Below, piece after piece: positions 35,813 through 54,510 of a stretch of DNA of 64,000 bases; the first letter of the stretch is position 1; the number at the start of each line of letters is the position of its first letter. The position numbers and the translations under genes were made by a program. The notes below the pieces were generated by a model, which saw only the letters and a list, made by a program, of their open reading frames with translations, ran no database searches and was not told the DNA's origin. Origin of the DNA: Capillimicrobium parvum (GTDB lineage Bacteria > Actinomycetota > Thermoleophilia > Solirubrobacterales > Solirubrobacteraceae); assembly GCF_021172045.1 (NCBI RefSeq), contig NZ_CP087164.1, forward strand, positions 5,394,001 through 5,458,000, in the 5' to 3' direction.

Positions 35813-37747
35813 TCAGCCCGTGGCCTTCGGATCCCCGCCCGTCTTGGCGAGCTGCTGGAGGCCGACGTCGACCGGGTTGAGCTTGAGCGCGCGCCCATAC
35901 CAGTAGCGGGCGGCGCGGTAGCGCCCCTGGCGGGCGTAGAAGTCGCCGATGACGCCCATCGTGGCGAAGTTGCCGGGCTCCTTGTCGAGCGCCTTGAGGA
36001 GGTCCGAGCGCGCCTCGGCGAGCTGGCCGTCGCTCTCGTGCGCCGACGCCATCAGGTACCACGGGACGACCGAGACCGGGTTGAGCTTGGAGGCGGTCCG
36101 GGCCGCCGAGAGCTGCTTGGCCGGCGAGTCGGCGGCGTCCGCGCGCGCCTGGCGGACGTAGAAGTCCGAGAGGTACAGGACGGCGACGGCGACGACCGCG
36201 ATCGCGAGGGCGCCCGCGGTGACCGCCCGCCACGCGGCGGGCAGCCGGCGCGACGGCGCGGTGGCGGGATCGAGGACGAGCGCGACGCCGATGCCCAGGC
36301 AGAGCAGGCCGAGCCCCGTGACGCCCGGGATCCGCCACATCCAGTCGACCATGGACTGGCCGATCAGCACGGCTCCCGAGGCGGCCAGGCCGCTGGCCAA
36401 TCGCTGCCGGGGTTGCGGGACGTGGCGCCAGCGCGTGACGAGCACGCCGATCGCCCCGACGAGGAAGGCGCCCATGAGGATCGCGCCGACCAGGCCGAGC
36501 TCCGACAGCACCTGGAACGGCAGCCCGTGTGGGTCGTCCAGGTTGCGGTCGTTGTTGCGGTGCCCGTAGTACTCGAAGGGGTAGGACGCCTCGCCGACGC
36601 CGGTGATCGGGTTGTCGGCGAACGCGTTCAGCGACACGCGCCAGAGGTCGTAGCGCTGGCCGGAGACGTTGGCGTACCGGGTCGCTCCGGTGGCGATGGT
36701 CTCGTTGGCGGTGAACTCGTCCCACTTCTGGCGGGCCTCGCTGACGGGGTTGCCGACGACCATGAGCCCGCCGACGATCCCGACGATCACGATCAGGACG
36801 AGCCCGGCCCGCGCGGCGAGGCGGGCGACGCGGATGCCCTCGCTGCCGGTGCGCAGGCCGTTGTCGACCAGGGCGATGGCCAGGCCGACGCCGAAGGCGA
36901 CCACCATGAGCAGCAGCGTCGTCCAGGCGGCACGGCTGATGTCGCCGTCCTGTACGACGCCCTGCCCGCCGTCGAAGGCGTTGTACGGCGTCAGCAGGCC
37001 GCTCGAGAAGATCGCGATGAGCACGACCGCCAGCACGCCGAGCCAGGCCCGGCGGATCCGCTCGGGCCCGAGCCCCAGCGCGACGACGGCGCCCACGCCG
37101 AGGCCGATGACGATGCCGCGGCTCTGCGTCAGGAACGCCAGGGCGAGGCAGAGGACGGCCAGCGAGAACGCGGCGGCGCGGAACGCCCGCTTCTCGCCGC
37201 GGGCGGCCAGCGCCAGCAGCGGCCAGACGCCCAGCGCGAAGAGCAGCGCCGTCGCGTTGCGGTAGCCCACCGGAGCGTCGAGGCGCCCGGCCAGGAAGAG
37301 CCCGTCGTCGCCGATGAGCATGCGGACGAGCGTGAGGAGGGCCAGCGCGGCGATGCCGGCGACCAGCCCGAGGCCGAGGACCTCGATCACCCGCCCGCGC
37401 GGGACGAGCACGATCGGGACCGTGACGAGCGCCGCGTAGAACAGGTCGCGCGCGCCGCCCTCCCAGGCGGCGGAGGGCGACGTCGACCAGAGCGCGGAGA
37501 GCAGCGCCCAGGCCGCGAAGCCCCAGATGCCGGCGAGCATGACCTTCGTCCAGCGGCCGCCCAGGGGGAGGCCGCCGCCGGCGATCTGCAGGGCCAGCAG
37601 CGTGCCGAGGACCAGCACGGCCGGCGGGCCCCAGTCGCGCAGGTAGAAGGCTCCGTGGTAGACGGTCGCCAGAAGGAGCAGGACGATGACGAACACCGCC
37701 GGAGCCGCGATGAGGGGGGACCGCGGCGGCGGCGTACGACTGTCCAC
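35813..37747 (-). CDS. O-antigen ligase/polymerase family (Wzy_C) membrane protein with TPR tail
   Basis: A 644-residue product from GTG 37747; ATG 37819 is in frame but would overlap the divergent gene. About 11-13 hydrophobic segments run from residue 15 to about 545. The large extracytoplasmic loop contains YDLWRVSLNAFADNPITGVG and EASYPFEYYGHRNNDRN, the usual Wzy_C/WaaL loop with R.....A....P..G.G. The C-terminal 95 residues hold TPR-like repeats (GQLAEARSDLLKALDKEPGN; GRYRAARYWYGRALKLNP). Expected role: joining or polymerising lipid-linked glycans outside the membrane. It has a second copy at 52444, also next to a secreted low-complexity protein. Confidence 0.84.
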   Translation of the reverse strand: MDSRTPPPRSPLIAAPAVFVIVLLLLATVYHGAFYLRDWGPPAVLVLGTLLALQIAGGGLPLGGRWTKVMLAGIWGFAAWALLSALWSTSPSAAWEGGARDLFYAALVTVPIVLVPRGRVIEVLGLGLVAGIAALALLTLVRMLIGDDGLFLAGRLDAPVGYRNATALLFALGVWPLLALAARGEKRAFRAAAFSLAVLCLALAFLTQSRGIVIGLGVGAVVALGLGPERIRRAWLGVLAVVLIAIFSSGLLTPYNAFDGGQGVVQDGDISRAAWTTLLLMVVAFGVGLAIALVDNGLRTGSEGIRVARLAARAGLVLIVIVGIVGGLMVVGNPVSEARQKWDEFTANETIATGATRYANVSGQRYDLWRVSLNAFADNPITGVGEASYPFEYYGHRNNDRNLDDPHGLPFQVLSELGLVGAILMGAFLVGAIGVLVTRWRHVPQPRQRLASGLAASGAVLIGQSMVDWMWRIPGVTGLGLLCLGIGVALVLDPATAPSRRLPAAWRAVTAGALAIAVVAVAVLYLSDFYVRQARADAADSPAKQLSAARTASKLNPVSVVPWYLMASAHESDGQLAEARSDLLKALDKEPGNFATMGVIGDFYARQGRYRAARYWYGRALKLNPVDVGLQQLAKTGGDPKATG

Positions 37748-37786
37748 TGCTTCCGTGATCGTCTGCGGGGCCGCTTCCTGCTGCTC

Positions 37787-37792
37787 TACACT
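37787..37792 (+). promoter_or_regulatory. -10 box TACACT (leaderless)
   Basis: Ends seven bases before GTG 37800 and lies about 40 bases upstream of the divergent ligase start, so it may couple the two transcripts. Confidence 0.6.
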
Positions 37793-37799
37793 CGCTGCG

Positions 37800-38417
37800 G
37801 TGAGTCGTGCTTCCCTCATCGCCTCGTTCGCGTTCGTGGTCGTGTGCCTGGCCGCGCCCCCGGTGAGTGCACAGCAGCAGCGGACCGACCCGGACGCTAG
37901 CAGCCCTGCCGGGGTCATCTACGAAATTCCGTTCGATACGGCCCGCAAGGACGCCGCTCCGAAGAAGGCGCGAGCGAAGGCGGACGACGGCTCGGGCGAC
38001 CAGCAGGACAACGGCACCTCGACCGCCGGGGCGGCCGGCACGACCGGCTCCGGGGGCGGTGGCAACGGGGATTCCGGCGCCAGCGGCGCGACCGCGGCCA
38101 CCGGATCGTCGGGATCTTCGGGCTCCTCGGGCTCATCGGGCTCATCGGGCTCATCGGGCTCATCGGGCTCATCGAGCGACAATCCGAACGTCGGCACGTC
38201 CATCCACTCCGAGAACGGATTCGGATCTTCGTCCAGGGTCCCGGGCGTGGGCGGCGCGACGGTCGGCACGGACGGTCCGCCGTCATCGGCGCTGCGCTCG
38301 GACTCGAGCTCCAGCACGACGTCCCCGGCCGTCACGTACGGCCTGCTGCTGATCCTGCTCGTCGTGGGCGGCTGGATCGGCCTCGCGGCCAGCCGCGGGC
38401 TGCGCACGTCCACCTGA
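37800..38417 (+). CDS. Secreted low-complexity protein with C-terminal membrane anchor
   Basis: A 205-residue product. A signal peptide at residues 1-21 (SRASLIASFAFVVVCLAAPP then VSA) is followed by an acidic/basic segment, about 60 residues of Gly/Ser/Ala with GSS repeats, and a single hydrophobic helix near the end (TYGLLLILLVVGGWIGLAAS) followed by RGLRTST. The topology would be an exposed flexible stalk held by the C-terminal helix. The same layout occurs at 51873, also beside a ligase gene. GTG 37800 is fixed by the signal peptide and by the -10 box seven bases upstream. The molecular role is unknown; it could be a glycan attachment or ligase partner protein. Confidence 0.7.
   Translation: MSRASLIASFAFVVVCLAAPPVSAQQQRTDPDASSPAGVIYEIPFDTARKDAAPKKARAKADDGSGDQQDNGTSTAGAAGTTGSGGGGNGDSGASGATAATGSSGSSGSSGSSGSSGSSGSSGSSSDNPNVGTSIHSENGFGSSSRVPGVGGATVGTDGPPSSALRSDSSSSTTSPAVTYGLLLILLVVGGWIGLAASRGLRTST
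38103..38174 (+). repeat. 9-bp tandem repeat (five exact GGCTCATCG units plus three variants)
   Basis: Positions 38130-38174 hold five perfect copies of GGCTCATCG, preceded by three diverged copies at 38103-38129. Each unit encodes Gly-Ser-Ser, so changes in copy number lengthen or shorten the linker of the secreted protein without a frameshift. Confidence 0.9.
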
Positions 38418-38449
38418 CCTGACGGCGCCGTTCCAGCGCGCGCCTCCCG

Positions 38450-38496
38450 ACGTGCGTCAGGTTTGTCCCGAGGGGTGGGCAAAAGGTGACGCACGT
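38450..38496. terminator. Bidirectional hairpin terminator candidate
   Basis: Perfect 10-bp arms ACGTGCGTCA (38450-38459) and TGACGCACGT (38487-38496), with further partial pairing inside (TTTG...CCC with GGGCAAAA). It lies in the 118-base gap between convergent genes 37800-38417 and 38536-39633. There is no strong U tract on either side. Confidence 0.5.
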
Positions 38497-38535
38497 CCGG
38501 GCGCGGCCACGCCCGCGCCGTCCGTCGCGGCCGGC

Positions 38536-39633
38536 TCAGCCCGCCGGAACCGTGTCCGCCGGCGGCGCGTCCGTCGTCGCCGGAGGCTCCGTCACCGCGG
38601 GCGGCTCGGTCGTCGCGGGCGGCTCGGTGACCGGCGGGGTCGTCGCGGTCGGCGTCGGCGTCGTCGGCGGGGCGGTCTGCGTGATCGGGGGCACCGTGGT
38701 GGTGCTCGTCGGCAGCGGGACCGTGGCCGTGGGCCGCGTGGTGGTCGTCGTCGGCTGCCTCGTGCCGCCCTTCTTGCCGGTGCTCTTCGGGGCGGCGGCG
38801 GGCGTCCGCGAGGGCGCGGTGGCCTTCGTCGGGGTCGGCGCGCCGGCGGCCGCGGACGGCTCCTGTGCCTGCGTGGTCACCGGCTCGCCGGACGGCGTCA
38901 CCGCGCCGGTGCCCGCGGTCGCCGAGGACGACGACCCCGCCTTCCTGGCCTTCTTCGCGGTCGTCGCCGTGGTGTCCGCGGGCGAAGGCGTGGTGCCCGC
39001 GCCGGTGGTGGGCGCGTCGGGCGGCGCGTCCGCGGGCGCGGTCGAGACCTTCGCGGCCCGCTGGCCGGACGGCTCGTCGCCGCCGCTGAGCGCGACGGCG
39101 CCCGCCGCGATCGCGGCGACCCCGAACAGCCCCAGCACCCCGCCAGCGACCAGCGCGGCCGGGCGACGCCGCAGGCGCCCGCCGACGCGGGACGGCGCGG
39201 CCGCGGCCGCCGGCGCCGGCAGCCCGGTGTCCGCGGTCCGAGGCGGCAGGGACGGCAGCACCGCGGCGCCGACGAGTGCCTCGAGCTGGCTGCGCAGCTC
39301 CTGCTCGTGCTCGTCACCTTCCGCGGCGGCCCCGAGATGCTCGGCCTGCACGTCGCCGGAGGCCAGCGACTCGAGCCAGGCAGCGGGATCGGCGGGCCGC
39401 GCGCCGGCACGCGCGGCGCTCCACGCGCCGAGCAGCGTGTCACGCAGGCGGTCCTCGTCACCGCCGGCGGCGGCCAGCAGCCGCTCGCGATGGCGGTCGG
39501 CGAGGACGGCGAAGGCGACGGGCAGCCCGGACCCCGCGAGGTCCATCAGCGAGCGGTCGGGCTGGCGCAGCAGCGGGCGCGCCCACACCGGCTGGTCGAG
39601 GACAGGGTCGGGCGGCTCCCGCACGATCGGCAC
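38536..39633 (-). CDS. Membrane protein with sigma-region-2-like head and Pro/Thr-rich extracellular tail
   Basis: A 365-residue product. Residues about 30-95 read like an ECF sigma region 2 (VAFAVLADRHRERLLAAAGG, DEDRLRDTLLGAWSAARAG, DPAAWLESLASGD) but no region 4 follows. One membrane helix (LVAGGVLGLFGVAAIAAGAV) lies near residues 158-180. The remaining 180 residues are Thr/Pro/Ala-rich with repeats such as EPPATTEPPAVTEPPATT, probably exposed and a good glycosylation substrate. It may be a sigma- or anti-sigma-related membrane sensor, or the resemblance may be coincidental. GTG 39633 is six bases after a TAGAGT box. Confidence 0.65.
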   Translation of the reverse strand: MPIVREPPDPVLDQPVWARPLLRQPDRSLMDLAGSGLPVAFAVLADRHRERLLAAAGGDEDRLRDTLLGAWSAARAGARPADPAAWLESLASGDVQAEHLGAAAEGDEHEQELRSQLEALVGAAVLPSLPPRTADTGLPAPAAAAAPSRVGGRLRRRPAALVAGGVLGLFGVAAIAAGAVALSGGDEPSGQRAAKVSTAPADAPPDAPTTGAGTTPSPADTTATTAKKARKAGSSSSATAGTGAVTPSGEPVTTQAQEPSAAAGAPTPTKATAPSRTPAAAPKSTGKKGGTRQPTTTTTRPTATVPLPTSTTTVPPITQTAPPTTPTPTATTPPVTEPPATTEPPAVTEPPATTDAPPADTVPAG

Positions 39634-39639
39634 GCCCCG

Positions 39640-39645
39640 ACTCTA
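39640..39645 (-). promoter_or_regulatory. -10 box TAGAGT (leaderless)
   Basis: Ends six bases before GTG 39633 on the minus strand. Confidence 0.6.
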
Positions 39646-39795
39646 ACGAGGTCCAGCCGCCGGTCCACCGCCATCCGGTCAGGCGGAAGTCCAACACCCG
39701 GCCAGGATTCCGCCGGGAAGGATTCTCCGACCGGGATCCGGCCGACAGCAGGGGGGAGCCCGCCGCCGTTCCACCGCGCGGCGGCCCCGTCCCGA

Positions 39796-39838
39796 CGGAG
39801 GCGCACGGAGCGCCTCCGGCCACTGCCAAGGAGGCGCC
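39796..39838 (+). promoter_or_regulatory. Structured leader with alternative Shine-Dalgarno-masking hairpin
   Basis: A perfect 9-bp stem, CGGAGGCGC (39796-39804) with GCGCCTCCG (39810-39818), precedes the start codon. The Shine-Dalgarno region 39830-39837 repeats the left arm exactly (GGAGGCGC), so the right arm can pair with either one. Pairing with the left arm frees the ribosome site; pairing with the ribosome site masks it. The leader further upstream (about 39740-39780) also holds a GCCGCC/GGCGGC hairpin. The strands' roles are inferred from base pairing only. Confidence 0.5.
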
Positions 39839-41143
39839 ATGCTTCACCCTGCCCGCACGGGTCGCCGACGCCTGCGCGACCACCCGGCCCATCTGCTCGC
39901 CGCCATCAGCGCGGCGATGGTGCTCTTCGCGCTGGCCACCGCATCCCCCAGCCCCGCGCCCGCCGCGCCCGCGCCGGGGACCGCGGCCGCCGTCCCGCCG
40001 CAGGGCGTCTACGACCAGTGCGCCCCCACGCCGGATCTCGGCACCTGCATCGAGCACGTCCGCCGGGTCGCCAGCAACGGGATGCCCATCATCCTCAACT
40101 ACACGAGCTGGTACGCGACGCCGACGGACCTGGTCGCGTATGCCGACGCCGCGGCCCTCGCGGGCGTGAAGCTCATCTGGCCGCTCAACGACAAGGTGTG
40201 GCGCGAGCAGGGCAACCTCTTCAAGCGCTACCCGAAGCTCGCGGCGCAGTGCTACTGCAACGACATGCTGGCCTACGTCGTCAACCGCCTGAAGGACCAT
40301 CCCGCAACGTGGGGCTGGTACATCGGCGACGAGCTGACCGTCAACGAGGCGCCGCTCGTGCAGGCGCTCGCCGACCGCGTCCGCGCGCTCGACCCCGACC
40401 ACCCGACGATCTACGTCGGCATGGGCATGCTCGAGCAGCTCGGCGCCAACCTCGGGCCGTACATCCGCGCCGCGGACTACATCGGCAGCGACATGTACCC
40501 GATCGGCAGCGTCGTGCCGCACACGCTCACGGGCGAGGCGATGGCAGCGTCGGCCCGCCAAATCAAGCCGGCCGGGAGGAACATGGTCGCGGTCCTGCAG
40601 GCCTTCGCGCACAACCAGTACCCCCAGGACGGGATGCCCGACGACCACTTCCCGACCGCCGCGGAGATGACCGATCAGCGCAACCAGGCGATCCTGGCGA
40701 GCGATCCCAGCCTCATCCTGTGGTACTCGCTCAACGACGTCGACCGCTCGGCGGACCCCGCCGGCAACTGGGCGAACCTCGTGCAGGCGGCCAACGCTCC
40801 TCCGCCGGTCGTGCCCGAGCCGCCGGTCGCCACCGCACCGCGCCCGTCGGCCACCCCGGCCGCGAAGGCCCGCGCGCGCACGGTGGCCGAGACGACGCGG
40901 ACGAGAGGGCCAAGCGTGCGACGTCGCGCACGGTGGCCGAGACGACGCGGACGAGCAGGGCCAAGCGGGCGACGTCGCGCTCGAACGCCGAGCGGGCGAC
41001 CGCGCGCCGGCGGTCCTAGCGCGGAGCCGGCGCCCGGACGGCGCGCGCCCAGTCGGCGAAGTGGCGAGCGGGGGCCCTGGAGTGGTCGATGTCCTGCAGC
41101 GAGTACCACAGGATCATCACGGGGCGCGAGACCTTCAGCGTGA
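39839..41143 (+). CDS. Secreted TIM-barrel (glycoside-hydrolase-like) protein, likely frameshifted at its C terminus
   Basis: As sequenced, 434 residues. An N-terminal signal or anchor (HLLAAISAAMVLFALATASP) precedes the catalytic-like domain, residues about 58-320: GVYDQCAPTPDLGTCIEHV, IILNYTSWYATP, GVKLIWPLNDKVW, ATWGWYIGDELTVNE (the acidic pair typical of hydrolase barrels), YIGSDMYPIG and LILWYSLNDVD. It is paralogous to 41016-41957. The tail holds a duplicated 51-base unit, one copy short by one base; restoring it gives a clean TVAETTRTSRAKRATSR repeat and a stop at 41019, four bases into the convergent gene. Without it the frame reads on as Arg-rich non-homologous sequence to 41143. A GGAGG ribosome site is four bases from ATG. 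Confidence 0.75.
   Translation: MLHPARTGRRRLRDHPAHLLAAISAAMVLFALATASPSPAPAAPAPGTAAAVPPQGVYDQCAPTPDLGTCIEHVRRVASNGMPIILNYTSWYATPTDLVAYADAAALAGVKLIWPLNDKVWREQGNLFKRYPKLAAQCYCNDMLAYVVNRLKDHPATWGWYIGDELTVNEAPLVQALADRVRALDPDHPTIYVGMGMLEQLGANLGPYIRAADYIGSDMYPIGSVVPHTLTGEAMAASARQIKPAGRNMVAVLQAFAHNQYPQDGMPDDHFPTAAEMTDQRNQAILASDPSLILWYSLNDVDRSADPAGNWANLVQAANAPPPVVPEPPVATAPRPSATPAAKARARTVAETTRTRGPSVRRRARWPRRRGRAGPSGRRRARTPSGRPRAGGPSAEPAPGRRAPSRRSGERGPWSGRCPAASTTGSSRGARPSA
40881..40981 (+). repeat. Two tandem copies of a 51-base unit, the first lacking one base
   Basis: Copy 1 is 40881-40930 (50 bases) and copy 2 is 40931-40981 (51 bases). They differ by a missing C after position 40895 (ACGAGAGGG against ACGAGCAGGG) and a few substitutions. 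It encodes a basic 17-residue repeat at the C terminus of the barrel protein. Confidence 0.8.
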
Positions 41144-41957
41144 GGTTGCGCGCCTTGAGCATCTCCGCGTAGGTCGGGAAGTGGTTGCGGTCGACGATCC
41201 CGGTGGGCGGGGCGTCGCGCACCTGGTTCCACGCGAACGCCTGAAGCGTCGCGACGAACTTGCGCCGCAGCGCGCTGGCCTCGCGTCCGGCGGAGCCCAT
41301 GGACTGCGCGAGGATCGACGTCGCGAACGCGGTGCCGAAGGGGAACATGTCGTTGCCGAGGTACTCCGCGGCGGGCGCGAACGGCTTGAGCCCCGCGCCG
41401 AAGAGCTGGTCGAGGCCGGCCTGCATGTAGAGGCGCGGGTGGTTCGGGTCGAGGAACAGCACCCGGTCGGCGAGCCGGATGACGGCGGGCGCGGTGCTCG
41501 CCGGCAGCTCGTCGCCGACGTACCAGCCCCACGTCGCGGGGTTGTGGCGCAACAGACGAACCGTGTACCGCAGCAGGTTGGTGCAGTGACATCCGCGGGA
41601 GAGCTGCGGATACGTCCTGCGCAGGCTCACTGCGCCGCGCCAGGCCGGGTGGATGAGCGGCCAGATGAGCTTGACCCCGGCGTTGCGCGCCGCGCGCGCG
41701 TACGCCCGGATCTGGCGCGGCGAGCCGTTGAGCGCCTGGTAGTTGAGGACGTACTTGATGCCGACGCGCGCGACGCGGCGCAGGTTGGCGGCGCACCGCG
41801 CCGGATGCGCGCCCGGCGGGCACTGCTCGTAGACGCCCTGCGGGGGCAGCTTCGCCGCCGCCGACGCGCCGGCCGGGCAGCGGGCGAGCAGCAACGCCGC
41901 AACGAGTGTCGCGAGCAACACACCCGCGCCGGCGATCCGTGCGCCAGTCGGTGACAC
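41016..41957 (-). CDS. Secreted TIM-barrel (glycoside-hydrolase-like) protein
   Basis: A 313-residue product from GTG 41957, with a signal peptide (AGVLLATLVAALLLARC then PAGASAAAK; the Cys might be lipidated). The domain matches the convergent neighbour block by block: GVYEQCPPGAHPARCAANLR, YVLNYQALNGSP, GVKLIWPLIHPAW, ATWGWYVGDELPAST, YLGNDMFPFG, MILWYSLQDID. The G-D-E-L acidic pair is retained, so hydrolase activity is plausible. The two genes are tail-to-tail paralogues, an unusual inverted duplication. It probably acts on the secreted glycan outside the membrane, by trimming or release. GTG 41957 lies seven bases after a TACCGT box; GTG 41975 is also in frame. Confidence 0.72.
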   Translation of the reverse strand: MSPTGARIAGAGVLLATLVAALLLARCPAGASAAAKLPPQGVYEQCPPGAHPARCAANLRRVARVGIKYVLNYQALNGSPRQIRAYARAARNAGVKLIWPLIHPAWRGAVSLRRTYPQLSRGCHCTNLLRYTVRLLRHNPATWGWYVGDELPASTAPAVIRLADRVLFLDPNHPRLYMQAGLDQLFGAGLKPFAPAAEYLGNDMFPFGTAFATSILAQSMGSAGREASALRRKFVATLQAFAWNQVRDAPPTGIVDRNHFPTYAEMLKARNLTLKVSRPVMILWYSLQDIDHSRAPARHFADWARAVRAPAPR

Positions 41958-41964
41958 GCCGCCC

Positions 41965-41970
41965 ACGGTA
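41965..41970 (-). promoter_or_regulatory. -10 box TACCGT (leaderless)
   Basis: Ends seven bases before GTG 41957 on the minus strand and supports that start over GTG 41975. Confidence 0.55.
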
Positions 41971-42003
41971 CACACGAGCCCCTGCGCAACAAAACGCGAA
42001 CGT

Positions 42004-43083
42004 TCAGGGGGCGCGCTGATACGCCGTGAACGCCGGCTTGCGGACGCCGTCGATCGCGATGAGGCCGGTGGTGAGCGAGCGATCGGTCCCGTCGTCGATC
42101 TCGTCCTGCAGGTTGAACCAGCCGAGCCCCGACACGTAGTCGACGGAGTTGACGAGCTTGTAGGCGGCCGTCACCCACTTCGCCTGCTGCGCACGGCTGA
42201 CCGAGAAGTTGAACGCGCGGTTCGGGCGGTCCGACGACACGGTGAACTCCGACACCCAGATCGGAGGGGTCGCGCGTCCACGGTATGCGCGCTTCAGCTC
42301 GGAGTGCAGCGTGTCGAGGTCGTTGATGTCGCGCAGGCCCTTGACGTAGACGTTGTCCTTGAGGCGCGGGAAGCGCGTCGAGAACGCGTTGTGGCCGTAC
42401 CAGTCCAGGCGCGGGGGCTTGCCGTTGGGCAGCCGCATCCACCTGACGAAGTCGCGCGGCGTCACCAGGCCGGTCGTGAAGGTCATCCCGCCGATGACGA
42501 TGTTCGTGGGGTCGACGAACTTCAGCGCGCCGTAGGCGGCGTCGAGCAGCTTCGCGTAGGACCGCGGGCCCTGCTTCTTGTTGAACGGCATCGGCTGGTA
42601 GCTGCCCTGCCGCGTCGGCTCGCCCCAGATCATCCAGCGGCGCACCGGCGGGTACCGGCGCGAGGCGGCGACGAGGAAGTCGCCGTAGTCGGTCGGGTTG
42701 CTCGGCGTCCAGTCCGGGGTCCGTCCGCCGTTGGCCCACGGCGGCGTGCCGCGGACCATGACCGCGACCTGGATGTTCTCGGCGGTCGCCTGCGCCACCG
42801 CATCGTCCAGCGCGCGCGGCCACCTGTACGCGGGGTCGTCGGGGTTGCCGGGATCCGCCGGGCGCTCGGGTGCCGTCGTCGCCCAGTCGAGCTGGACCTC
42901 GAAGACGTCGACGCCGAGCTCCTTGTAGACCGGGAACGCCGAGGTGCCGTCGCCGAGGGTCGTGGCGCCCCAGATCGCCTTCTCGGCGGGGGCGGCGCGC
43001 CGCTTCGTCGCGGCGGAGGCGGTGGTGCCGACGACGAGCAGCACGGCGAGCAGCGCGGCGGCCAGGGGTGGAATGCGGCGCAT
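42004..43083 (-). CDS. Secreted glycoside hydrolase-like protein (clan A, GH5/GH39-like)
   Basis: A 359-residue product. The signal peptide RRIPPLAAALLAVLLVVGTT then ASA starts at ATG 43083, which has GGAG six bases upstream; GTG 43131 would be a leaderless alternative. The barrel begins AIWGATTLGDGTSAFPVYKE, continues with VMVRGTPPWANGG and WMIWGEPTRQGSYQ (the W-G-E-P segment corresponds to the acid/base W.EPN motif of clan GH-A), LDWYGHNAFSTR and PIWVSEFTVSSD (candidate nucleophile Glu). It is probably an extracellular glycan-cleaving enzyme. It is divergent from 43143, and its -10 box overlaps that gene's start codon. Confidence 0.8.
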   Translation of the reverse strand: MRRIPPLAAALLAVLLVVGTTASAATKRRAAPAEKAIWGATTLGDGTSAFPVYKELGVDVFEVQLDWATTAPERPADPGNPDDPAYRWPRALDDAVAQATAENIQVAVMVRGTPPWANGGRTPDWTPSNPTDYGDFLVAASRRYPPVRRWMIWGEPTRQGSYQPMPFNKKQGPRSYAKLLDAAYGALKFVDPTNIVIGGMTFTTGLVTPRDFVRWMRLPNGKPPRLDWYGHNAFSTRFPRLKDNVYVKGLRDINDLDTLHSELKRAYRGRATPPIWVSEFTVSSDRPNRAFNFSVSRAQQAKWVTAAYKLVNSVDYVSGLGWFNLQDEIDDGTDRSLTTGLIAIDGVRKPAFTAYQRAP

Positions 43084-46803: not shown

Positions 46804-46814
46804 CGGGCGTGCGG

Positions 46815-47924: not shown

Positions 47925-47933
47925 TGCGCCGCA

Positions 47934-47939
47934 ACGGTA
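47934..47939 (-). promoter_or_regulatory. -10 box TACCGT
   Basis: Ends nine bases before GTG 47924 on the minus strand and supports that start over GTG 47945. Confidence 0.45.
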
Positions 47940-47961
47940 CGGCACGCTCCCGGCGCCCCCG

Positions 47962-47967
47962 TACGCT
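47962..47967 (+). promoter_or_regulatory. -10 box TACGCT
   Basis: Ends ten bases before GTG 47978. It is back-to-back with the GT4 promoter, the two boxes 22 bases apart. Confidence 0.45.
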
Positions 47968-47977
47968 GCGGGCGACC

Positions 47978-49642
47978 GTGGACACGACCGTCTCCATCGC
48001 CATACCGACGCGCAACCGCGCCGGCTACCTGCGCACCGCGCTGCGGTCGATCGTGCCCCAGGCGCGCGCGGCGGGCGCCGACGTCCTCGTGGTCGTCGAC
48101 GGGCCCGACCCGGCCAGCGAGGCCGTCGCCGCCGAGCTGGGCGTGCGCGCGGTCGTCCACGAGGCGCCGCGCGGGCTGAACGCCGCCCGCAACACCGCCA
48201 TCGCGCAGACCGGCGGCGAGCTCCTCGCCTTCGTCGACGACGACGTCGCGGTGCACCCCGGCTGGCTCGCCGCGCTGCGCTCCGCCGCCGCCGCCGAGCC
48301 CGGCGTCGACTGCTTCACCGGCCCGATCGTCGCGCGCATCGAAGACCACGCCTTCCCGATGTGCGGGCGCGAGGGGCCGCCGGTCACCTTCCTCGACCTC
48401 GGCCGCGCCGACGTCGACGCCCCGCACGCGTGGGGGGCGAACATGACGATCCGCCGCGGCGCGTTCGAGCGGGTGGGCCGCTTCGACGAGAGCCGCGAGC
48501 TCTACGGCGACGAGCAGGAATGGCAGGACCGGCTGCGCGCCTCCGCCCGCCCGCGCATCCGCTACGTGGCCGCCGCCCGGCTCGACCACCGGCGCGCGGG
48601 CGACGACGCCCGCCTGCGCAGCCTGATGCGCGCGGCGCGGGCGCGGGGCCGCGCCAGCCGCCGCTTCGACGTCCACCGCGGCACGGCGCCGGGCCTCGCC
48701 GCCGAGCTGCGCGTGCTCGCCGGCTGCGTCGCGCATGGGCCGCGCCACCGGTGCGCCAACGGCCCGGTCATGGCCGCCCACAGCGCCGGCCGGCTCGAGG
48801 CCGCCCTGCGGCCCGCGCCCGACCCGGCCGCGCCGGACTTCCTCGCCGGCGTCTCCGGCACCGTGGGCGGACGCCGCGCGGCGCTGCGCCGCGCCGCGGA
48901 TGCGCTGCTCGACGTCGCCGCCCTGCCGGTCCGCGCCCGCCTGCGCCGGGCCGGTCGCGCGACGCCCCGCCGGCGCGTCCTCGCCCTGGCGATCGTCCGC
49001 GACGAGCACCGCGACCGCTGGGACCGCATCGCGGCGCAGCTGCGCGCGAGCCGCCACGACGTCGAGGTGGCGACCACCGCTCCCGGCGACCGCGGCAAGT
49101 TCGAGAACCTCGACGCGCTGCTCAGCGCCCACCCCGCCGGCGCCCACGACTGGCTGCTCGTCTGCGACGACGACGTCGTCCTGCCCGGCGCCTTCCTCGA
49201 CGACCTGGTCGCCGCCGCCGAGCGCCTGGACCTCCAGCTCGCCCAGCCGGCGCACCGCCTGCACTCCCACGCCGCCTGGAGCGTGACCCGCCGGCGGGGC
49301 GGGTGGGCCGGATCCCTCGCCCGCGAGACGGCGTTCGTCGAGATCGGCCCGGTCACGCTCGTCGCCGCGGCCGCGTTCGGAGACCTGCTGCCGTTCCCGC
49401 CGCTGCGCATGGGCTGGGGGCTCGACGTCCACTGGGCGGCGCTGGCCCGCGAGCGCGGGCTGCGCCTCGGCGTCGTCGACGCCGTGCCGGTCCTGCACGA
49501 CGCCGCGCCCGCCGCGGCCGCGTACTCCCGCCGCGACGCGGAGGCCGAGGCGCGCGCGTTCCTCGCCACGCGCCCGTACCTCCCGCGCGATGAGGCCAAC
49601 CGCACCCTGCGCGTCCACCGAAGGCTCCCTGCAGCGGGGTAG
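47978..49642 (+). CDS. Two-domain GT2-type glycosyltransferase
   Basis: The 554-residue product has an N-terminal GT-A domain: TTVSIAIPTRNRAGYLRTAL, VLVVVDGPD, LLAFVDDDVAVHPGWLAALR (metal site DDD), HAWGANMTIRRGAFERVGRF and the ELYGDEQEWQDRLRAS catalytic-acid region. After a basic linker (PVRARLRRAGRATPRRR, about residues 315-335) a second GT-A-like domain begins RVLALAIVRDEHRDRWDRIA and has the metal-like site DWLLVCDDDVVLPGAFLDD, then GWGLDVHWAALARERGL. It could add two residues or couple transfer and chain-length control. It starts at GTG 47978; its TAG stop forms part of the next -10 box. Confidence 0.84.
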   Translation: MDTTVSIAIPTRNRAGYLRTALRSIVPQARAAGADVLVVVDGPDPASEAVAAELGVRAVVHEAPRGLNAARNTAIAQTGGELLAFVDDDVAVHPGWLAALRSAAAAEPGVDCFTGPIVARIEDHAFPMCGREGPPVTFLDLGRADVDAPHAWGANMTIRRGAFERVGRFDESRELYGDEQEWQDRLRASARPRIRYVAAARLDHRRAGDDARLRSLMRAARARGRASRRFDVHRGTAPGLAAELRVLAGCVAHGPRHRCANGPVMAAHSAGRLEAALRPAPDPAAPDFLAGVSGTVGGRRAALRRAADALLDVAALPVRARLRRAGRATPRRRVLALAIVRDEHRDRWDRIAAQLRASRHDVEVATTAPGDRGKFENLDALLSAHPAGAHDWLLVCDDDVVLPGAFLDDLVAAAERLDLQLAQPAHRLHSHAAWSVTRRRGGWAGSLARETAFVEIGPVTLVAAAAFGDLLPFPPLRMGWGLDVHWAALARERGLRLGVVDAVPVLHDAAPAAAAYSRRDAEAEARAFLATRPYLPRDEANRTLRVHRRLPAAG

Positions 49643-49645
49643 CCT
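49640..49645 (+). promoter_or_regulatory. -10 box TAGCCT overlapping a stop codon
   Basis: Its first three bases are the TAG stop of the GT2 gene. It ends 38 bases before GTG 49684, so it would give a leader of about 30 bases. Confidence 0.4.
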
Positions 49646-49683
49646 GCGCACATCCTGCGCGCTGACGTCCGCATCCCGCCGCC

Positions 49684-50865
49684 GTGAAGGCGCTCGTCGT
49701 CGCCGAGTTCTACCCGTCCGAGCGCGACCCCGTGCTGGGGATCTGGGCGCACGAGCAGGCCGTCGCCGCGCGCGACGCCGGAGCCGAGGTCGAGGTCGTG
49801 GTGCTGCACCGGCTCGTCCCGCCGCGGACGTCCCTGCGCAACCGCAGCGCGCTGCACGAGCTCGGCCGGCGGCTGCGCGAGCCCCGCACCCAGCACCGCG
49901 ACGGCCTGCGCGTGACGTACGTGCCGTTCGTCTCGCCCCCCCGCGCGCGGGCGTACGCGCGCTGGGGCGCCTGGGCCGCCCCGCCGCTGGCCGCCGCCCT
50001 GCGCCGCATCCGCCGGCGCTTCCCGTTCGACGTCGTGCACGCCCACAACAGCGTGCCCGCCGGCCAGGCCGTCCTGCGCGCCCGCACCCGTGCGCCGCTC
50101 GTCCTCTCGGTCCACGGCCCCGACGTGCTCTTCGTCCCGCAGCAGGTGCCCGGCGGCGACGTGGCCGTACGGCACGCGCTCAGCGGGGCGCGGATCGTGC
50201 TCGCCAACTCGGAGGGCATCGCCAACCTCGTGCGCCGGCAGGGCGTCGGCGACGTGCGGGTCGTGCACCTCGGCACCGATCTGCCCGGCGGGATCGAGCA
50301 GAAGAGCGCCGAGACGATCGTCACCGTCGGCCACCTCGTCGCCCGCAAGCGCCACGCCGACGTCATACGGGCGCTCTGGCTGCTGCGCGAGCGCCACCCA
50401 GAGCTGCACTACCTCGTCATCGGCGACGGCCCCGAGCGCGGCAACCTCGAACGGCTCGCCGCCGACCTCGGCGTGCCCGTGCGCTTCACGGGCCAGCTCG
50501 AGCACGCGCAGGCACTGGGGCTCGCCCGGCGCTGCGCGCTGTTCGTCATGCCGAGCATCGACGAGGCCTTCGGCGTCGCCTACGTCGAGGCGATGGCCGG
50601 CGGCGTGCCGGCGATCGGCGCACGCGGCGAGCCCGGCCCCGAGGACATCGGCGACGGGCTCGTGCTCGTTCCGCCGGGCGACCCTGAGCGGCTGGCCGCG
50701 CAGATCGAGGACCTCGTCGCGGAGCCGCGCTACCTGCAGGAGCTGGGCGCCGTCGCGCGGGCGACCGTCGCCGAGCGCTTCACGTGGGCGCGCTGCGGCA
50801 CGGACACGGTCGCCGCCTACGAGGCCGCGCTGGGCGCCGAAGCCGGAGACAAGCGGGCGATTTGA
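49684..50865 (+). CDS. Glycosyltransferase family 4
   Basis: The 393-residue product starts KALVVAEFYPSERDPVLGIW, with FDVVHAHNSVPAGQAVLRAR and LVLSVHGPDVLFVPQQ as the acceptor-side motifs, VHLGTDLPGG at the hinge, VTVGHLVARKRHADVIRALW and YLVIGDGPERGNLERLAADL in the donor domain, and the end motif DEAFGVAYVEAMAGGVPAIG. GTG 49684 is the only reasonable start. It overlaps the next gene by four bases (TTGA), so two GT-B enzymes are made together. This is a clear retaining GT4 of the exopolysaccharide type; donor unknown. Confidence 0.9.
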   Translation: MKALVVAEFYPSERDPVLGIWAHEQAVAARDAGAEVEVVVLHRLVPPRTSLRNRSALHELGRRLREPRTQHRDGLRVTYVPFVSPPRARAYARWGAWAAPPLAAALRRIRRRFPFDVVHAHNSVPAGQAVLRARTRAPLVLSVHGPDVLFVPQQVPGGDVAVRHALSGARIVLANSEGIANLVRRQGVGDVRVVHLGTDLPGGIEQKSAETIVTVGHLVARKRHADVIRALWLLRERHPELHYLVIGDGPERGNLERLAADLGVPVRFTGQLEHAQALGLARRCALFVMPSIDEAFGVAYVEAMAGGVPAIGARGEPGPEDIGDGLVLVPPGDPERLAAQIEDLVAEPRYLQELGAVARATVAERFTWARCGTDTVAAYEAALGAEAGDKRAI

Positions 50866-51866
50866 AGCCGGTCCTGCTGGTGACCGGCCACGCGCCGGGC
50901 GACCGCGTGGCCCCGTTCGCCGCGCTGCACGAGCGCGAGTCCATCGAGGTCGCGCTGTTCGGCGGGCGCGACCGCCACGGCGCGGCGGGCCGCGCCGCCC
51001 TGCCCGTGCCGCACCGCACCGTCGGCCAGCGGGGCGTCTACGGGCTGGCCGCCGGCGGCCGCTACCGGGCGGTGATCGCCGGGCTCGGCGGTCGCGTCGC
51101 GCCGCTCGCCGCCGCGCTCGGCGCCCGCCGCGCCGGGATCCCGTTCGTCCTGTGGACGGGGCTGTGGGCGCACCCGCGCAGCGCCGCGCACCTCCTCTCC
51201 TACACCCCGACGCTCTGGCTGTACCGCAGCGCCGGCGCGGTGGTCACGTACGGACCCCACGTGTCCGAGTACGTCCGCCGCCGCGGGGCGCGCAACGTGC
51301 ACGTCGCCCCGCAGGCCGTCGACGCCGCGTTCTGGGGCGCGACGGTGCCCGGCCGGCGCGAGCGCGCGTTCCAGGTGCTGTTCGTCGGCCGGCCCGATCC
51401 CGAGAAGGGCCGCGCGGTGCTGCTCGACGCCTGGCCGGACGCCGTCTGCGTCGGCGACCCGCCCGTGCCGCCGGAGGAGGTGCGCAACTTCCTGGCGGGA
51501 TCGCACGTCCTGGTCGTAGCGTCGCTGCGGACCCGCACCTTCCGGGAGCCGTGGGGGCTCGTCGTCAACGAAGCCATGCACCAGCGCGTTGCAGTCATCG
51601 CCACCGACCAGGTCGGCGCCGCCGCCGGCGGCCTCCTGCGCCACGAGCGCACCGGGCTCGTCGTGCCCGCGGGCGATGCGGGCGCCCTGCGCGCCGCGAT
51701 CGAGCGCCTGCGCGACGACCCCGGCCTGCGCGAGCGCCTCGCCGCCGCCGGGGCCGCGGCCGTCGCCGCCCACACCCCGCAGGCCTGGGCGGGCGGCATG
51801 TCCGCGGCCCTGGCGAGCGTGGGCGCCGGCGCGCCGACCCCCCGAACCGAGCCGCTAGCGTCGTAG
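50862..51866 (+). CDS. Glycosyltransferase family 4
   Basis: A 334-residue protein translated from TTG 50862, coupled to the preceding gene. The acceptor half is shorter than usual: PVLLVTGHAPGDRVAPFAAL, PFVLWTGLWAHPRSAAHLL and VTYGPHVSEYVRRRG. The donor half has QVLFVGRPDPEKGRAVLLDA and the end motif FREPWGLVVNEAMHQRVAVI, a typical GT4 variant with E-P-W-G-L-V-V-N-E. The tail RTEPLAS runs to a TAG just ahead of the secreted-protein gene. It likely acts on the product of the neighbouring GT4. Confidence 0.85.
   Translation: MKPVLLVTGHAPGDRVAPFAALHERESIEVALFGGRDRHGAAGRAALPVPHRTVGQRGVYGLAAGGRYRAVIAGLGGRVAPLAAALGARRAGIPFVLWTGLWAHPRSAAHLLSYTPTLWLYRSAGAVVTYGPHVSEYVRRRGARNVHVAPQAVDAAFWGATVPGRRERAFQVLFVGRPDPEKGRAVLLDAWPDAVCVGDPPVPPEEVRNFLAGSHVLVVASLRTRTFREPWGLVVNEAMHQRVAVIATDQVGAAAGGLLRHERTGLVVPAGDAGALRAAIERLRDDPGLRERLAAAGAAAVAAHTPQAWAGGMSAALASVGAGAPTPRTEPLAS
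51856..51861 (+). promoter_or_regulatory. -10 box TAGCGT
   Basis: Ends 11 bases before ATG 51873 of the secreted protein and lies within the last codons of the GT4 gene. Confidence 0.4.
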
Positions 51867-51872
51867 GGCTTC

Positions 51873-52469
51873 ATGCGCAGGGCGTTCCTCCTCACCCTCC
51901 TGCTCGTGCTGCTTCCGGCTGCCGCCGCGCACGCCAGCGCCGCCCAGGTCATCCGGGACTGCACCGACGACGGCGTCCTCTCCGGCAGCTACAGCCAGAA
52001 GGAGCTGCGCTCGGCGCTCGCCAACCTGCCCAGCGACGTCGACGAGTACACCAACTGCCGCGACGTGATCCGCGCCGCGCAGCTCTCGGGCGGCAGCGGC
52101 AACGCCGGCGGGGGTGGCTCCACGACCGGCGGCGGGTCCACCGGCACCGGTGGCGGCGGCACCGGCGCCACGGGCACGACGAGCGGCGGCACCGGCGCCA
52201 CGGGTACCGCCCCCAAGCCGAAGACCGGCAGCTCGCCGGGCCCCTTCGGCGGCTTCTCGGGATATCCGGCGGACCCGGAGGCGGGCGCCACGAAGCGGGA
52301 GCTCGCGGCGGTCGGCGCCGCGCAGCACGCGCCGGCCGAGAACACGTCCGTGGCCGCGGCCACCCTGCCGGCGCCGCTCGTGGTCGCCCTGGCGCTCGGC
52401 GCGCTGGGACTGATCGTCCTCGGAGCCCTCGACCTTCGGCGCCGTGTCGTCGCACGCCGCGGCGCCTGA
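51873..52469 (+). CDS. Secreted protein with Cys pair, Gly/Thr-rich stalk and C-terminal anchor
   Basis: A 198-residue product. Signal peptide RRAFLLTLLLVLLPAAAAHA then SA, mature start AQVIRDCTDDGVLSGSYSQK, with a second Cys in EYTNCRDVIRAAQ, giving a small two-Cys domain at residues about 22-70. About 70 residues of Gly/Thr/Ser low complexity follow (GGGGSTTGGGSTGTGGGGTG), then a hydrophobic helix near the C terminus (LVVALALGALGLIVLGALDL) followed by RRRVVARRGA. The order signal - stalk - helix - basic tail matches the 37800 protein, and both adjoin an O-antigen ligase gene. It overlaps the ligase start by 26 bases. It may be a ligase acceptor or partner. Confidence 0.72.
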   Translation: MRRAFLLTLLLVLLPAAAAHASAAQVIRDCTDDGVLSGSYSQKELRSALANLPSDVDEYTNCRDVIRAAQLSGGSGNAGGGGSTTGGGSTGTGGGGTGATGTTSGGTGATGTAPKPKTGSSPGPFGGFSGYPADPEAGATKRELAAVGAAQHAPAENTSVAAATLPAPLVVALALGALGLIVLGALDLRRRVVARRGA

Positions 52470-54510
52470 CGCCGCGCTCGCGCCGGCCCGCGCCCTCGCC
52501 CTGCGCCGCCCGGGGGCGACCGCGTGGACGACGCTCGGCGTGGGCGCGCTGCTCACGCTCGTGGCGTTCGCCGCCAACGGCGGGCTGCGGCTCGGCGAGA
52601 CGACGACCGTCGAGATCGGGCTCCTGCTCGGCTGCGGGGTCGGCGGCGCCGGGGCGATCCTGGCCACGCCCGACCGCGGCCGCTGGTGGGGCGCCGGGGC
52701 GCTGGCCGCCTTCGCACTCTTCGCCGGCTGGACGCTCGTGTCGATCGTCTGGGCGGTGCAGCCGTCGGATGCCTGGGTCGAGGCGAACCGCACGCTGACC
52801 TACCTGGCGGTGTTCGCCGCCTCGCTCGCGTTCGTGCGCGTCGCGCCGCGCCAGTGGGAGGGCGTGCTCGGCGGGATCGTGCTGGCCACGGTCGTCGTCT
52901 CCGGCTACGCCTTGGTGACGAAGGTGTTCCCGGGGACGCTCAGCGCCGATGAGCTCTACGCCCGCCTGCGCGCCCCGTTCGGCTACTGGAACGCGACCGG
53001 CCTCTTCGCCGCGCTCGGGATCCCCGCCTGCGTCTGGCTCGGCGCGCGCCGGCACGGCTACGGCCCGCTCTCGGCGCTCGCCTTCCCCGCGCTCGGCGTC
53101 CTGCTCGTCGCGGTGCTGCTGGCCTACTCGCGCGGCGCGCTGCTCGCCCTCGCCCTCGGCCTGATCTTCTGGTTCGCGGTCGTGCCGCTGCGCGTGCGCG
53201 GCGCGGCGGTGCTGCTCATCGGCGCGGCCGGTGCGGTGCCGGTGGCGCTGTGGGCGTTCGCGCGTGACGGGCTGACCACCGACCGCCTGTCCACCGACCT
53301 GCGCGCGCCTTCCGGCCACGAGCTCGGCGTGCTGCTGGTCGTGATGGTCGGGCTGCTGCTCGCGGTGGGCCTGTGGGTGAGCTTCCGGGAGTCGCGCGAT
53401 TCGCTGAGCCGGATCGCCCGCCGCCGCATCGGCGTGACGCTCCTCGTCTGCCTGGCGCTCGTGCCGGTCGGCGTCGCCGCCTACCTCGCGACGACCGACC
53501 GCGGGCTGTTCGGCTCGATCTCGCACGGCTGGACGACGCTGACCGACCCGCACGCCACGACGCCGCCCAACGACCCCAGCCGCCTGACCGCGGTGGGCTC
53601 GGTGCGCTCGCGCTACTGGAACGAGGCGCTCAAGGCGTTCAAGGACCACCCGGTGCTCGGCGTCGGCGCCGAGGGCTACGCGACGGCCCGCGCGTTCTAC
53701 CGCGACGACACGCTCGAGGTGCGCCACGCCCACGGCTTCGTCGTGCAGACGCTGGCCGACCTGGGAATCGTGGGCCTGGCGCTCGCGCTGCTGGCGCTGG
53801 GCGCGTGGCTGTACGCCGCCGCGCGCGCGACCGGCCTGCGCGAACGCGACCGAGGCCGCCGCTACGGCCCGGAGCGCATCGGCCTGCTGACGATGGTGTC
53901 GATCGTCGTCGTCTACGGCGTGCACTCGTTCGTCGACTGGACGTGGTTCATCCCCGGCTGCACCGTCCTCGCGCTGCTGTGCAGCGGCTGGGTCGCGGGC
54001 CGCGGGCCGCTGCGCCAGCCGCCGCCGGACCCGCCGCCTCTGCGCGGGCCGCGCGCCTGGCTGCGCGAGCGCCCGGCGGTCGCGGCCGCGCTGCTGGCCC
54101 TCGTCACGGCGGTGGGCGTCGCGTGGGCGGTGTGGCAGCCGCTGCGCTCGCTGGACGCGACGAACGCGGCCCTGGCCAAGCTCGAGTCCGGCGACCTGGT
54201 CGGCGCGCAGCGCGACGCGCGGACCGCCGGCGACCGAAACCCGCTCTCGCTCGAGCCGCTGAGCGTTCTCGCCGTCGCCCAGAGCCGCGCGGGCGACCAG
54301 CAGGCGGCGCTGCAGACGCTGCAGCGCGAGGTGCGCCTGCAGCCGAGCAACCCGGAGCCGTGGCTGCGCCTGGGCGACTTCCAGTTCAACAAGCTCCACC
54401 AACCGGCCGAGGCGCTGAAGTCCGTGCGCACCGCGCTGTACCTGGACCCGCACAACCCGCAGACGATCGGCGCGTACATCGTCGTGCTGCGGGCCACGCA
54501 GAAGGGCTGA
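52444..54510 (+). CDS. O-antigen ligase/polymerase family (Wzy_C) membrane protein with TPR tail
   Basis: A 688-residue protein from GTG 52444. About 12 membrane segments run from residue 25 to about 560. The large loop contains RYWNEALKAFKDHPVLGVGA and RHAHGFVVQTLADLGIVGLA, including the conserved R..YW..A...F..HP..G.G and H...L....E/D.G patterns of the WaaL/Wzy family. The last 110 residues hold TPR-like repeats (GDQQAALQTLQREVRLQPSN; AEALKSVRTALYLDPHNP). It is a paralogue of 35813-37747 and likely joins finished glycans to a carrier outside the membrane. Translationally coupled to the preceding secreted protein. Confidence 0.87.
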   Translation: MSSHAAAPDAALAPARALALRRPGATAWTTLGVGALLTLVAFAANGGLRLGETTTVEIGLLLGCGVGGAGAILATPDRGRWWGAGALAAFALFAGWTLVSIVWAVQPSDAWVEANRTLTYLAVFAASLAFVRVAPRQWEGVLGGIVLATVVVSGYALVTKVFPGTLSADELYARLRAPFGYWNATGLFAALGIPACVWLGARRHGYGPLSALAFPALGVLLVAVLLAYSRGALLALALGLIFWFAVVPLRVRGAAVLLIGAAGAVPVALWAFARDGLTTDRLSTDLRAPSGHELGVLLVVMVGLLLAVGLWVSFRESRDSLSRIARRRIGVTLLVCLALVPVGVAAYLATTDRGLFGSISHGWTTLTDPHATTPPNDPSRLTAVGSVRSRYWNEALKAFKDHPVLGVGAEGYATARAFYRDDTLEVRHAHGFVVQTLADLGIVGLALALLALGAWLYAAARATGLRERDRGRRYGPERIGLLTMVSIVVVYGVHSFVDWTWFIPGCTVLALLCSGWVAGRGPLRQPPPDPPPLRGPRAWLRERPAVAAALLALVTAVGVAWAVWQPLRSLDATNAALAKLESGDLVGAQRDARTAGDRNPLSLEPLSVLAVAQSRAGDQQAALQTLQREVRLQPSNPEPWLRLGDFQFNKLHQPAEALKSVRTALYLDPHNPQTIGAYIVVLRATQKG

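Follow-up and report, generated by a model that had tools for sequence, protein, structure and literature searches.

Here we describe two gene pairs in a 64,000-nucleotide (nt) stretch of the Capillimicrobium parvum genome (NZ_CP087164.1, positions 5,394,001 to 5,458,000; hereafter the window). Each pair consists of a Wzy_C protein with a C-terminal tetratricopeptide repeat (TPR) tail, which we call a ligase, and a small secreted membrane protein with a flexible linker, which we call a stalk. The genome is a single contig of 5.95 Mb, and the G+C content of the window is 69–78% across 4-kb stretches. The order Solirubrobacterales is placed in Actinomycetota, class Thermoleophilia, whose members are mostly soil-dwelling actinobacteria; among the matches listed, the nearest named relatives of ligase 2 come from Solirubrobacterales and Solirubrobacteraceae metagenome genomes. 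A sequence-only reading had described the two pairs as one repeated unit and suggested that each stalk is the glycan acceptor or a specificity factor of its ligase. All four genes were found at the positions it gave, divergent in pair 1 and overlapping by 26 nt in pair 2, and both ligases do combine Wzy_C with a C-terminal TPR tail. The features, in window coordinates, are as follows.

35813–37918, minus strand: ligase 1, Wzy_C with a C-terminal TPR tail (open reading frame and Pfam; clade C in the ligase tree).
35867–36064, minus strand: TPR tail of ligase 1, residues ~619–684 of the 701-aa form (Pfam TPR_2, 38.8 bits, cut-off 27).
37800–38417, plus strand: stalk 1, with signal peptide, conserved N-terminal motif, Gly/Ser linker and C-terminal membrane helix; GTG start, 205 aa (open reading frame, hydropathy, alignment A5).
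37887–37952, plus strand: conserved motif of stalk 1, residues 30–51 (alignment A5, 7/7 sequences).
37920–37922, plus strand: codon of stalk 1 Tyr41, invariant in A5 and proposed as a glycan attachment site.
38340–38393, plus strand: C-terminal membrane helix of stalk 1 (hydropathy).
51873–52469, plus strand: stalk 2, with signal peptide, Cys-pair mini-domain, Gly/Thr linker, LPxPL boundary motif, membrane helix and basic tail; ATG start, 198 aa.
51939–52094, plus strand: Cys-pair helical mini-domain of stalk 2, residues ~23–74 (AlphaFold).
52047–52049, plus strand: codon of stalk 2 Tyr59, invariant in alignments A4 and A2 and proposed as a glycan attachment site.
52371–52460, plus strand: C-terminal membrane helix and basic tail of stalk 2, residues 167–196 (AlphaFold helix).
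52444–54510, plus strand: ligase 2, Wzy_C with a TPR tail; 688 aa, GTG start within the end of stalk 2 (26-nt overlap).
53332–53787, plus strand: Wzy_C domain of ligase 2, with invariant Arg380, Arg388 and His430 (Pfam, alignments).
54133–54507, plus strand: TPR domain of ligase 2, residues ~564–688, predicted to lie outside the cytoplasm (fold match; positive-inside rule).

Ligase 1 may start at ATG 37918 (701 aa), which makes it overlap stalk 1, or at GTG 37747 (644 aa), 52 nt from stalk 1. An antisense open reading frame at 37919–38413, the gene caller's choice over stalk 1, was rejected; since 28 other loci match the stalk-1 profile (E up to 1e-4), stalk 1 is taken as a real gene. As expected, both small proteins begin with a signal peptide and end, beyond the linker, in a membrane helix. 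The basic tail that had been described for both is weak in stalk 1, which has two Arg there. Nor is stalk 2 a stalk alone: its linker is real, but a small helical Cys-pair domain follows the signal peptide.

The pairing extends far beyond the window. When the neighbors of Wzy_C-TPR genes were surveyed in related genomes, as the sequence-only reading had advised, stalk genes recurred beside ligases. In a search that began from stalk 2, a ligase homologue lies beside the stalk in 48/55 loci, 44 times codirectional and downstream and 4 times divergent; these loci were drawn from 80 rows outside the window, and of the 25 rows omitted 22 were weaker than 1e-6 and 3 stronger. In a search that began from the ligase alone, a codirectional stalk with the Cys-domain pattern lies directly upstream of 66/69 ligase-2 relatives having at least 700 nt of upstream sequence (the best 80 of 126 confirmed stretches, less 11 with <700 nt), the three without one being L269, L277 and L294. 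Many places are common to the two sets of loci, so that the two counts are not independent. The aligned ligase-2 relatives reach down to 30% identity. With starts chosen by script, the stalk and ligase genes overlap in 51 of the 66 loci, by exactly 26 nt in 22 of them. For stalk 1, a ligase homologue (called by tblastn at E up to 1e-3, whether or not a TPR is present) lies within 1.5 kb in 20 of the 28 loci outside the window, and both divergent and stalk-downstream orders occur.

A census of Wzy_C genes provides the background against which to view these numbers. Matches at E up to 0.001 in 14 genomes gave 98 places after split matches were merged; seven second-segment rows were dropped, and one sub-cut-off fragment (G043:C5:195685) was kept. 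We divided these genes by the tail after the last membrane helix into long-tailed (at least 100 aa, n = 43) and short-tailed (n = 55). A strict six-frame test for stalks, which requires a signal, a low-complexity middle and one C-terminal helix and recovers 52/55 known stalk-2 relatives, finds a stalk neighbor for 24/43 long-tailed genes versus 5/55 short-tailed genes (Fisher p 5e-7) and 6/177 background genes (p 4e-15). One of the 5 short-tailed positives (L154) is a chain-length protein, and two of the 6 background positives (L124 and L161) are ligase-linked stalks reached from the other side. A looser test, applied to the long-tailed set alone, passes open reading frames near 14 of the 19 genes that the strict test missed. 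Inspection by eye upheld seven of them (L016, L173 at 960 nt, L105, L196, the second gene of L120, L115 and L150), which brings the long-tailed genes with a stalk to 31/43; the remaining frames were judged to be antisense or to belong to other genes. In the genome of C. parvum itself, a stalk lies beside three of four long-tailed genes, and the fourth (L019) adjoins a chain-length gene. As a separate observation, genes encoding stalk-like proteins with (D/E/S)QY in their N-terminal part lie beside short-tailed Wzy_C genes (L195 3792–4388, L140 5845–6369, L142 5963–6832 and L161 2601–3635), so the pairing may extend beyond TPR ligases.

In the tree, the 43 long-tailed ligases fall into six clades, named A–F, and the position of the stalk changes from clade to clade. 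It is upstream in clade A, which holds ligase 2 (12/13), divergent in clade B (6/6), divergent or downstream in clade C, which holds ligase 1 (2/5), convergent and equipped with LPxTG in clade E (3/5), and downstream in clade F (4/9). Clade D (4/5) includes a third pair from the C. parvum genome, at G000:C1 ~995287–997693 (locus L016, 7288–7767 and 7826–9694), in which a TPR ligase stands divergent to a small gene encoding a signal peptide, a Cys pair and a membrane helix; in L190, L149 and L173 (960 nt away) the stalk is downstream. Of the six clade B stalks, all but that of L150 match the profile of stalk 2, with E from 2e-18 to 2e-11. The stalk families of clades A, C and D match each other nowhere outside the signal peptide or membrane helix. 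Two candidate homologies were rejected: the A4–A5 profile match between stalk 2 and stalk 1 (E 6.8e-7) is 33 columns at the signal peptide, and that between the A5 and A6 stalks (E 4.5e-5) is 24 columns at the membrane helix. Matches so confined do not lead us to call the families homologous. The two pairs in the window are not copies of one pair, as their stalk profiles match over the signal peptide alone and their ligases belong to separate clades. A search for stalk paralogues in the same genome returned, besides the genes themselves, one weak match each (E 0.115 and 0.0246). The partnership thus survives changes of orientation and draws on several unrelated stalks. Synteny across the order, together with the retention of pairs through orientation changes, strongly supports the functional partnership that the sequence-only reading had suggested. 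The pairing is no accident, and we regard the partnership itself as close to certain.

Clade C also contains two proteins in which a PF00953 transferase domain and a Wzy_C-TPR ligase are fused (L188 3806–6523 and L138 3227–6112), and a PF02397 sugar transferase lies beside clade C ligases in L132 and L133. Enzymes of these two families are of the kind that starts lipid-linked glycans, which counts in favor of the transferase role proposed below. To judge from their domains, the fused proteins may both start a lipid-linked glycan and transfer it.

The ligases have the features of the Wzy_C superfamily, to which WaaL and O-oligosaccharyltransferases belong. Wzy_C scores 66.1 bits in ligase 1 and 54.6 bits in ligase 2 (Pfam, cut-off 31.7). 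The AlphaFold model of ligase 2 (mean pLDDT 92.6) has the WaaL fold over residues 24–526 (7tpg_B, Z 21.3, rmsd 4.5, 384 aligned, 16% identity), and its residues ~560–688 match TPR domains with a best Z of 18.2; by sequence, the TPR in ligase 2 is weak (18.5 bits at most in Pfam). TPR domains of O-GlcNAc transferase are among the fold and sequence matches of the tail, which we treat as analogy only. Arg230, Arg380, Arg388 and His430 are invariant in ligase alignments of 30 sequences, ligase 1 included, and of 56 sequences. Conserved Arg and His residues are thus present in the catalytic loop, and R215, R288 and H338 of WaaL probably have their counterparts among the four. One extra membrane helix after the ligase core is predicted by the positive-inside rule to place the TPR domain outside; in 38/43 long-tailed ligases the last helix is preceded by a loop of net positive charge.

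Stalk 2 has matches in 48/61 genomes, its own genome and weak matches (E up to 0.01) included. In a sample of the phylum, at least 25/396 genomes have a match, 24 within the class and one, weak, outside it; up to 8 first-look candidates were scored per genome, so that absences are soft. Its relatives share a signal peptide, a Cys-pair domain of ~50 residues, a Gly/Ser/Thr linker, an LPxPL-like motif, a membrane helix and a basic end. Exactly two Cys lie within residues 19–110 in 47/50 of them, and the LPxPL-type motif stands at the helix boundary in 44/50. LPxTG before the C-terminal helix occurs in 0/50 stalk-2 relatives and not in stalk 1. In the stalk 2 model, residues 21–70 lie in blocks at pLDDT 88–95, and the linker is disordered. 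The 50 members scanned have no Pfam family in common (two families were hit, in one member each). A fold search with the stalk-2 model found nothing at E up to 0.001 (the top match had E 2.9), a null that says little about the mini-domain because much of the model is disordered. Two further secreted proteins (L125 8078–8509 and L130 7660–8094) apparently carry two stalk-2 Cys domains each; they lack the C-terminal helix, and their stretches contain no ligase homologue. The domain thus seems to be used outside ligase pairs as well. Stalk 1 has matches in at least 29/201 genomes of the order, with up to 16 first-look candidates scored per genome and absences again soft; loci were obtained for 29 distinct places, the window included, and two further rows had none. 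Eight residues (D30, P31, S35, G38, Y41, P44, R49 and D51) are invariant in the 7/7 members of alignment A5.

In each of the three stalk alignments A4, A5 and A6, one tyrosine beyond the signal peptide is kept. Tyr59 is present in 50/50 stalk-2 relatives in A4 and in 38/38 in A2. Among Ser, Thr and Tyr columns kept in at least 85% of sequences, A4 has only Tyr59 (50/50), A6 only Tyr39 (4/4), and A5 both Tyr41 and Ser35 (7/7). The motif Gln-Tyr-Ala/Ser-Pro occurs in five clade B stalks, and the ectodomain of each of the three clade E stalks contains a single tyrosine. In the 30 loci of relatives of the L157 ligase, Gly-Tyr or Thr-Tyr follows shortly after the signal peptide in 21/21 stalks, as read by eye, with a second, antisense-looking candidate in L363 set aside from this count.

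Those 30 loci, which best match the L157 ligase of clade F (not all are in the tree, and some, such as L338 and L339, are near copies), also suggest a different way of anchoring the stalk. An adjacent stalk is present in 21, and 11 of these stalks have LPxTG; a sortase match is present in 9 loci, and LPxTG stalk and sortase occur together in 8. In L157 (2754–6760) and L196 (4006–8193), genes for a sortase, a polysaccharide deacetylase, the ligase and an LPFTG stalk stand in a row in one direction (sortase and deacetylase by Pfam, which confirmed two sortases). L339 has matches to all four, and the deacetylase is also present in L337, L338 and L339. Sortases are found in 13/14 census genomes.

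We propose that each pair consists of an O-oligosaccharyltransferase and its dedicated acceptor, which probably receives the glycan on tyrosine and is anchored in membrane or wall, and we put the probability of this reading at roughly 60%. The WaaL-fold ligase would take a glycan from its lipid carrier at the outer face of the membrane and move it onto the stalk protein encoded by the adjacent gene. The extra helix after the WaaL-like core would set the TPR domain outside, where it could hold the exported stalk. The likeliest attachment point would be the lone tyrosine kept soon after the signal peptide, and the loaded stalk would then stay in the membrane through its C-terminal helix or, in other clades, be joined to the wall by sortase. 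Such a stalk might fill the place that lipid A has in Gram-negative bacteria, as carrier of a surface glycan in bacteria that presumably have a single membrane. To our knowledge, lipid A is not expected in these bacteria. What the data show directly is the gene pairing and its conservation, the fold of ligase 2, the invariant residues and the sortase operons; that the stalk is glycosylated, that tyrosine is the site, that the TPR touches the stalk and how the ligase is oriented are inferred. Of the two roles first suggested for the stalk, the evidence favors glycan acceptor over specificity factor: ectodomains that do not match between clades A, C and D fit acceptors better than a conserved subunit. 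The tyrosine is the less certain half of the proposal, suggested by its conservation in the stalks together with the WsfB system discussed below, whose acceptor is glycosylated on tyrosine.

Several observations weigh against this proposal. The sequence-only reading had named a ligase-TPR gene lacking an adjacent stalk as its refuting case, and such genes occur: 12/43 long-tailed ligases, L019 of C. parvum among them, have no accepted stalk. Thus, the pairing rule is strong, not universal. Conversely, 8/28 other stalk-1 loci have no ligase homologue within 1.5 kb, four stalk-2 relatives of full architecture (L098, L119, L121 and L127) have none in the fetched stretch, and four of the 55 short-tailed Wzy_C genes also have stalk-like neighbors. 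Neither ligase has a Pfam match to PglL_A at E up to 0.1, and of ten further long-tailed ligases compared with Pfam, two (L126 of clade B and L162 of clade E) have tails without a TPR match. The clade B stalk of L150, the one without a stalk-2 profile match, has no ectodomain tyrosine. The tyrosine may be structural in clades A and B, where it is part of a folded domain or adjacent to one, and the linkers contain many Ser and Thr, through which the glycan might be linked instead.

This last point underlies the best-surviving alternative, in which the stalk is again the acceptor, its glycans are carried on linker Ser/Thr as in low-complexity PglL targets, and the tyrosine is a docking residue. 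Linkers and ectodomains do average 8–21 Ser and 5–12 Thr per protein by family (with the clade F group in these averages chosen by tyrosine pattern), and Neisseria PglL is reported to modify additional substrates in flexible low-complexity regions (PMC3643930). However, no Ser/Thr column reaches 85% in A4 or A6. We consider linkage through the linker possible, if on the whole unlikely.

A second alternative dispenses with glycosylation of the stalk, which would instead be a membrane partner of the ligase (a specificity or activity factor, or a scaffold), as Wzz is for Wzy. Adjacent genes that overlap in so many loci would suit such a subunit, as would a membrane helix with a basic tail and, in clade B stalks, a conserved folded domain with a conserved C-terminal tail. 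However, LPxTG stalks with an adjacent sortase gene would leave the membrane, and for a protein destined for the wall, the role of a product carrying something comes more naturally than that of a membrane-enzyme subunit. The lack of relationship between stalk families across clades and the single conserved tyrosine also speak against a membrane partner, a role that we regard as doubtful.

The proposal of a transferase and its acceptor must also be set against the possibility that the TPR-tailed proteins are Wzy polymerases for a surface polysaccharide and the small genes unrelated envelope neighbors. Indeed, two long-tailed genes, L019 and L158, directly adjoin chain-length genes and have no accepted stalk. 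In general, however, chain-length (Wzz/BY-kinase-like) genes within 2.5 kb accompany short-tailed genes (19/55) rather than long-tailed ones (4/43; p 0.004); the chain-length set drifted to some Wzy_C proteins, and without L154, whose count comes from that drift, the figures are 18/55 and p 0.007. Together with stalk pairing far above background, this division of neighbors between stalks and chain-length genes points to two kinds of Wzy_C gene and makes polymerases very improbable here. Finally, an exosortase might sort the stalks as its substrates, with the ligase only a part of the export system. This is suggested by the LPxPL-type pattern at the helix boundary and by TIGR03097 (PEP_O_lig_1, an exosortase A-associated ligase) as best NCBIfam model of both ligases, but is scarcely credible given scores of 32.7 and 40.0 bits that do not reach the cut-off of 188.1, the absence of LPxTG from the 50 stalk-2 relatives and PF09721 in 0/61 genomes, that of C. 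parvum included.

If the pairs are transferases with dedicated acceptors, a wider picture can be drawn, which we hold tentatively and at a little under even odds. Thermoleophilia would possess, across the class, parallel modules for protein O-glycosylation, in which each lineage of TPR ligase has recruited its own small carrier, repeatedly and from unrelated families. Each carrier would present its ligase with one tyrosine close to the N terminus, and its flexible arm would end either in a membrane helix or in a signal for sortase. Surface glycans would thereby be attached to proteins of membrane or wall, which would amount to a protein counterpart of lipopolysaccharide.

Other genes of the window may be mentioned briefly. 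Adjoining stalk 1, 38536–39633 (minus strand) encodes a membrane protein with a long Pro/Thr-rich C-terminal part and no Pfam family over cut-off. Two secreted proteins that appear similar by eye, encoded at 39839–41143 (plus) and 41016–41975 (minus), are convergent and overlapping, perhaps an inverted duplication. Adjacent gene doublets at 12233–13815 and 13856–16182, with starts similar by eye, are probably tandem duplications.

These pairs bear on how Wzy_C genes are read. The Pfam name of the domain is O-antigen ligase, yet lipid A, on which O-antigen is accepted, is unexpected here; an adjacent protein acceptor would name the target of ligation. A working rule could then be read from genomes, in which a TPR tail marks a protein ligase with a stalk and a short tail a polymerase with a chain-length regulator. 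The candidate tyrosine sites are named, tyrosine O-glycosylation, so far little explored, becomes testable in a large group, and the pairs would be new enzyme–acceptor combinations for glycoprotein engineering. The enzyme family itself is already known. Among the titles and abstract openings listed in a literature search that mostly lacked subscription journals, no description of such ligase–stalk pairs was found; within that scope, what appears new is how many unrelated families of small stalks there are, that a tyrosine is kept in them and that a form with sortase exists.

It is useful to compare the pairs with known systems, beginning with the more distant ones. WaaL (7tpg) has the fold of ligase 2 residues 24–526 and the conserved outer-loop Arg/His, whereas the matched chain has no TPR tail and no stalk partner. 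The acceptor of WaaL is lipid A-core. Wzy polymerases that work with Wzz/BY-kinase have the same Pfam domain, and candidates for them occur in the same genomes, but they have a short tail and a chain-length neighbor in place of the stalk. TfpM is likewise a Wzy_C protein, whose NCBIfam model scores 24.5 against a cut-off of 600, far too low in the window ligases. PEP_O_lig_1 is the nearest NCBIfam model, set apart by its sub-cut-off scores and by the lack of an exosortase in the 61 genomes.

On our best reading, by analogy, the nearest known systems are WsfB and PglL. WsfB of Paenibacillus alvei is a predicted S-layer O-oligosaccharyltransferase with Wzy_C and a C-terminal TPR, in a Gram-positive host, and the S-layer protein is glycosylated on tyrosine (PMC2943079); in our stalks it is conservation that points to tyrosine. 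The likeness is one of domain architecture. The WsfB acceptor, moreover, is an S-layer protein and wsfB is transcribed alone, whereas here small stalks of several unrelated families adjoin their ligases. If the stalks are acceptors, the pairs in this respect resemble the PglL/pilin O-oligosaccharyltransferases, which share Wzy_C, have some low-complexity targets and are often encoded next to their acceptor gene: PglL genes lie near pilin genes in 21/31 cases (PMC3643930). The named PglL acceptors are mostly type IV pilins, unlike the stalks, and PglL_A has no match in the window ligases. The acceptor role that we propose for the stalks would thus follow the logic of PglL and its pilins, in enzymes with the architecture of WsfB.

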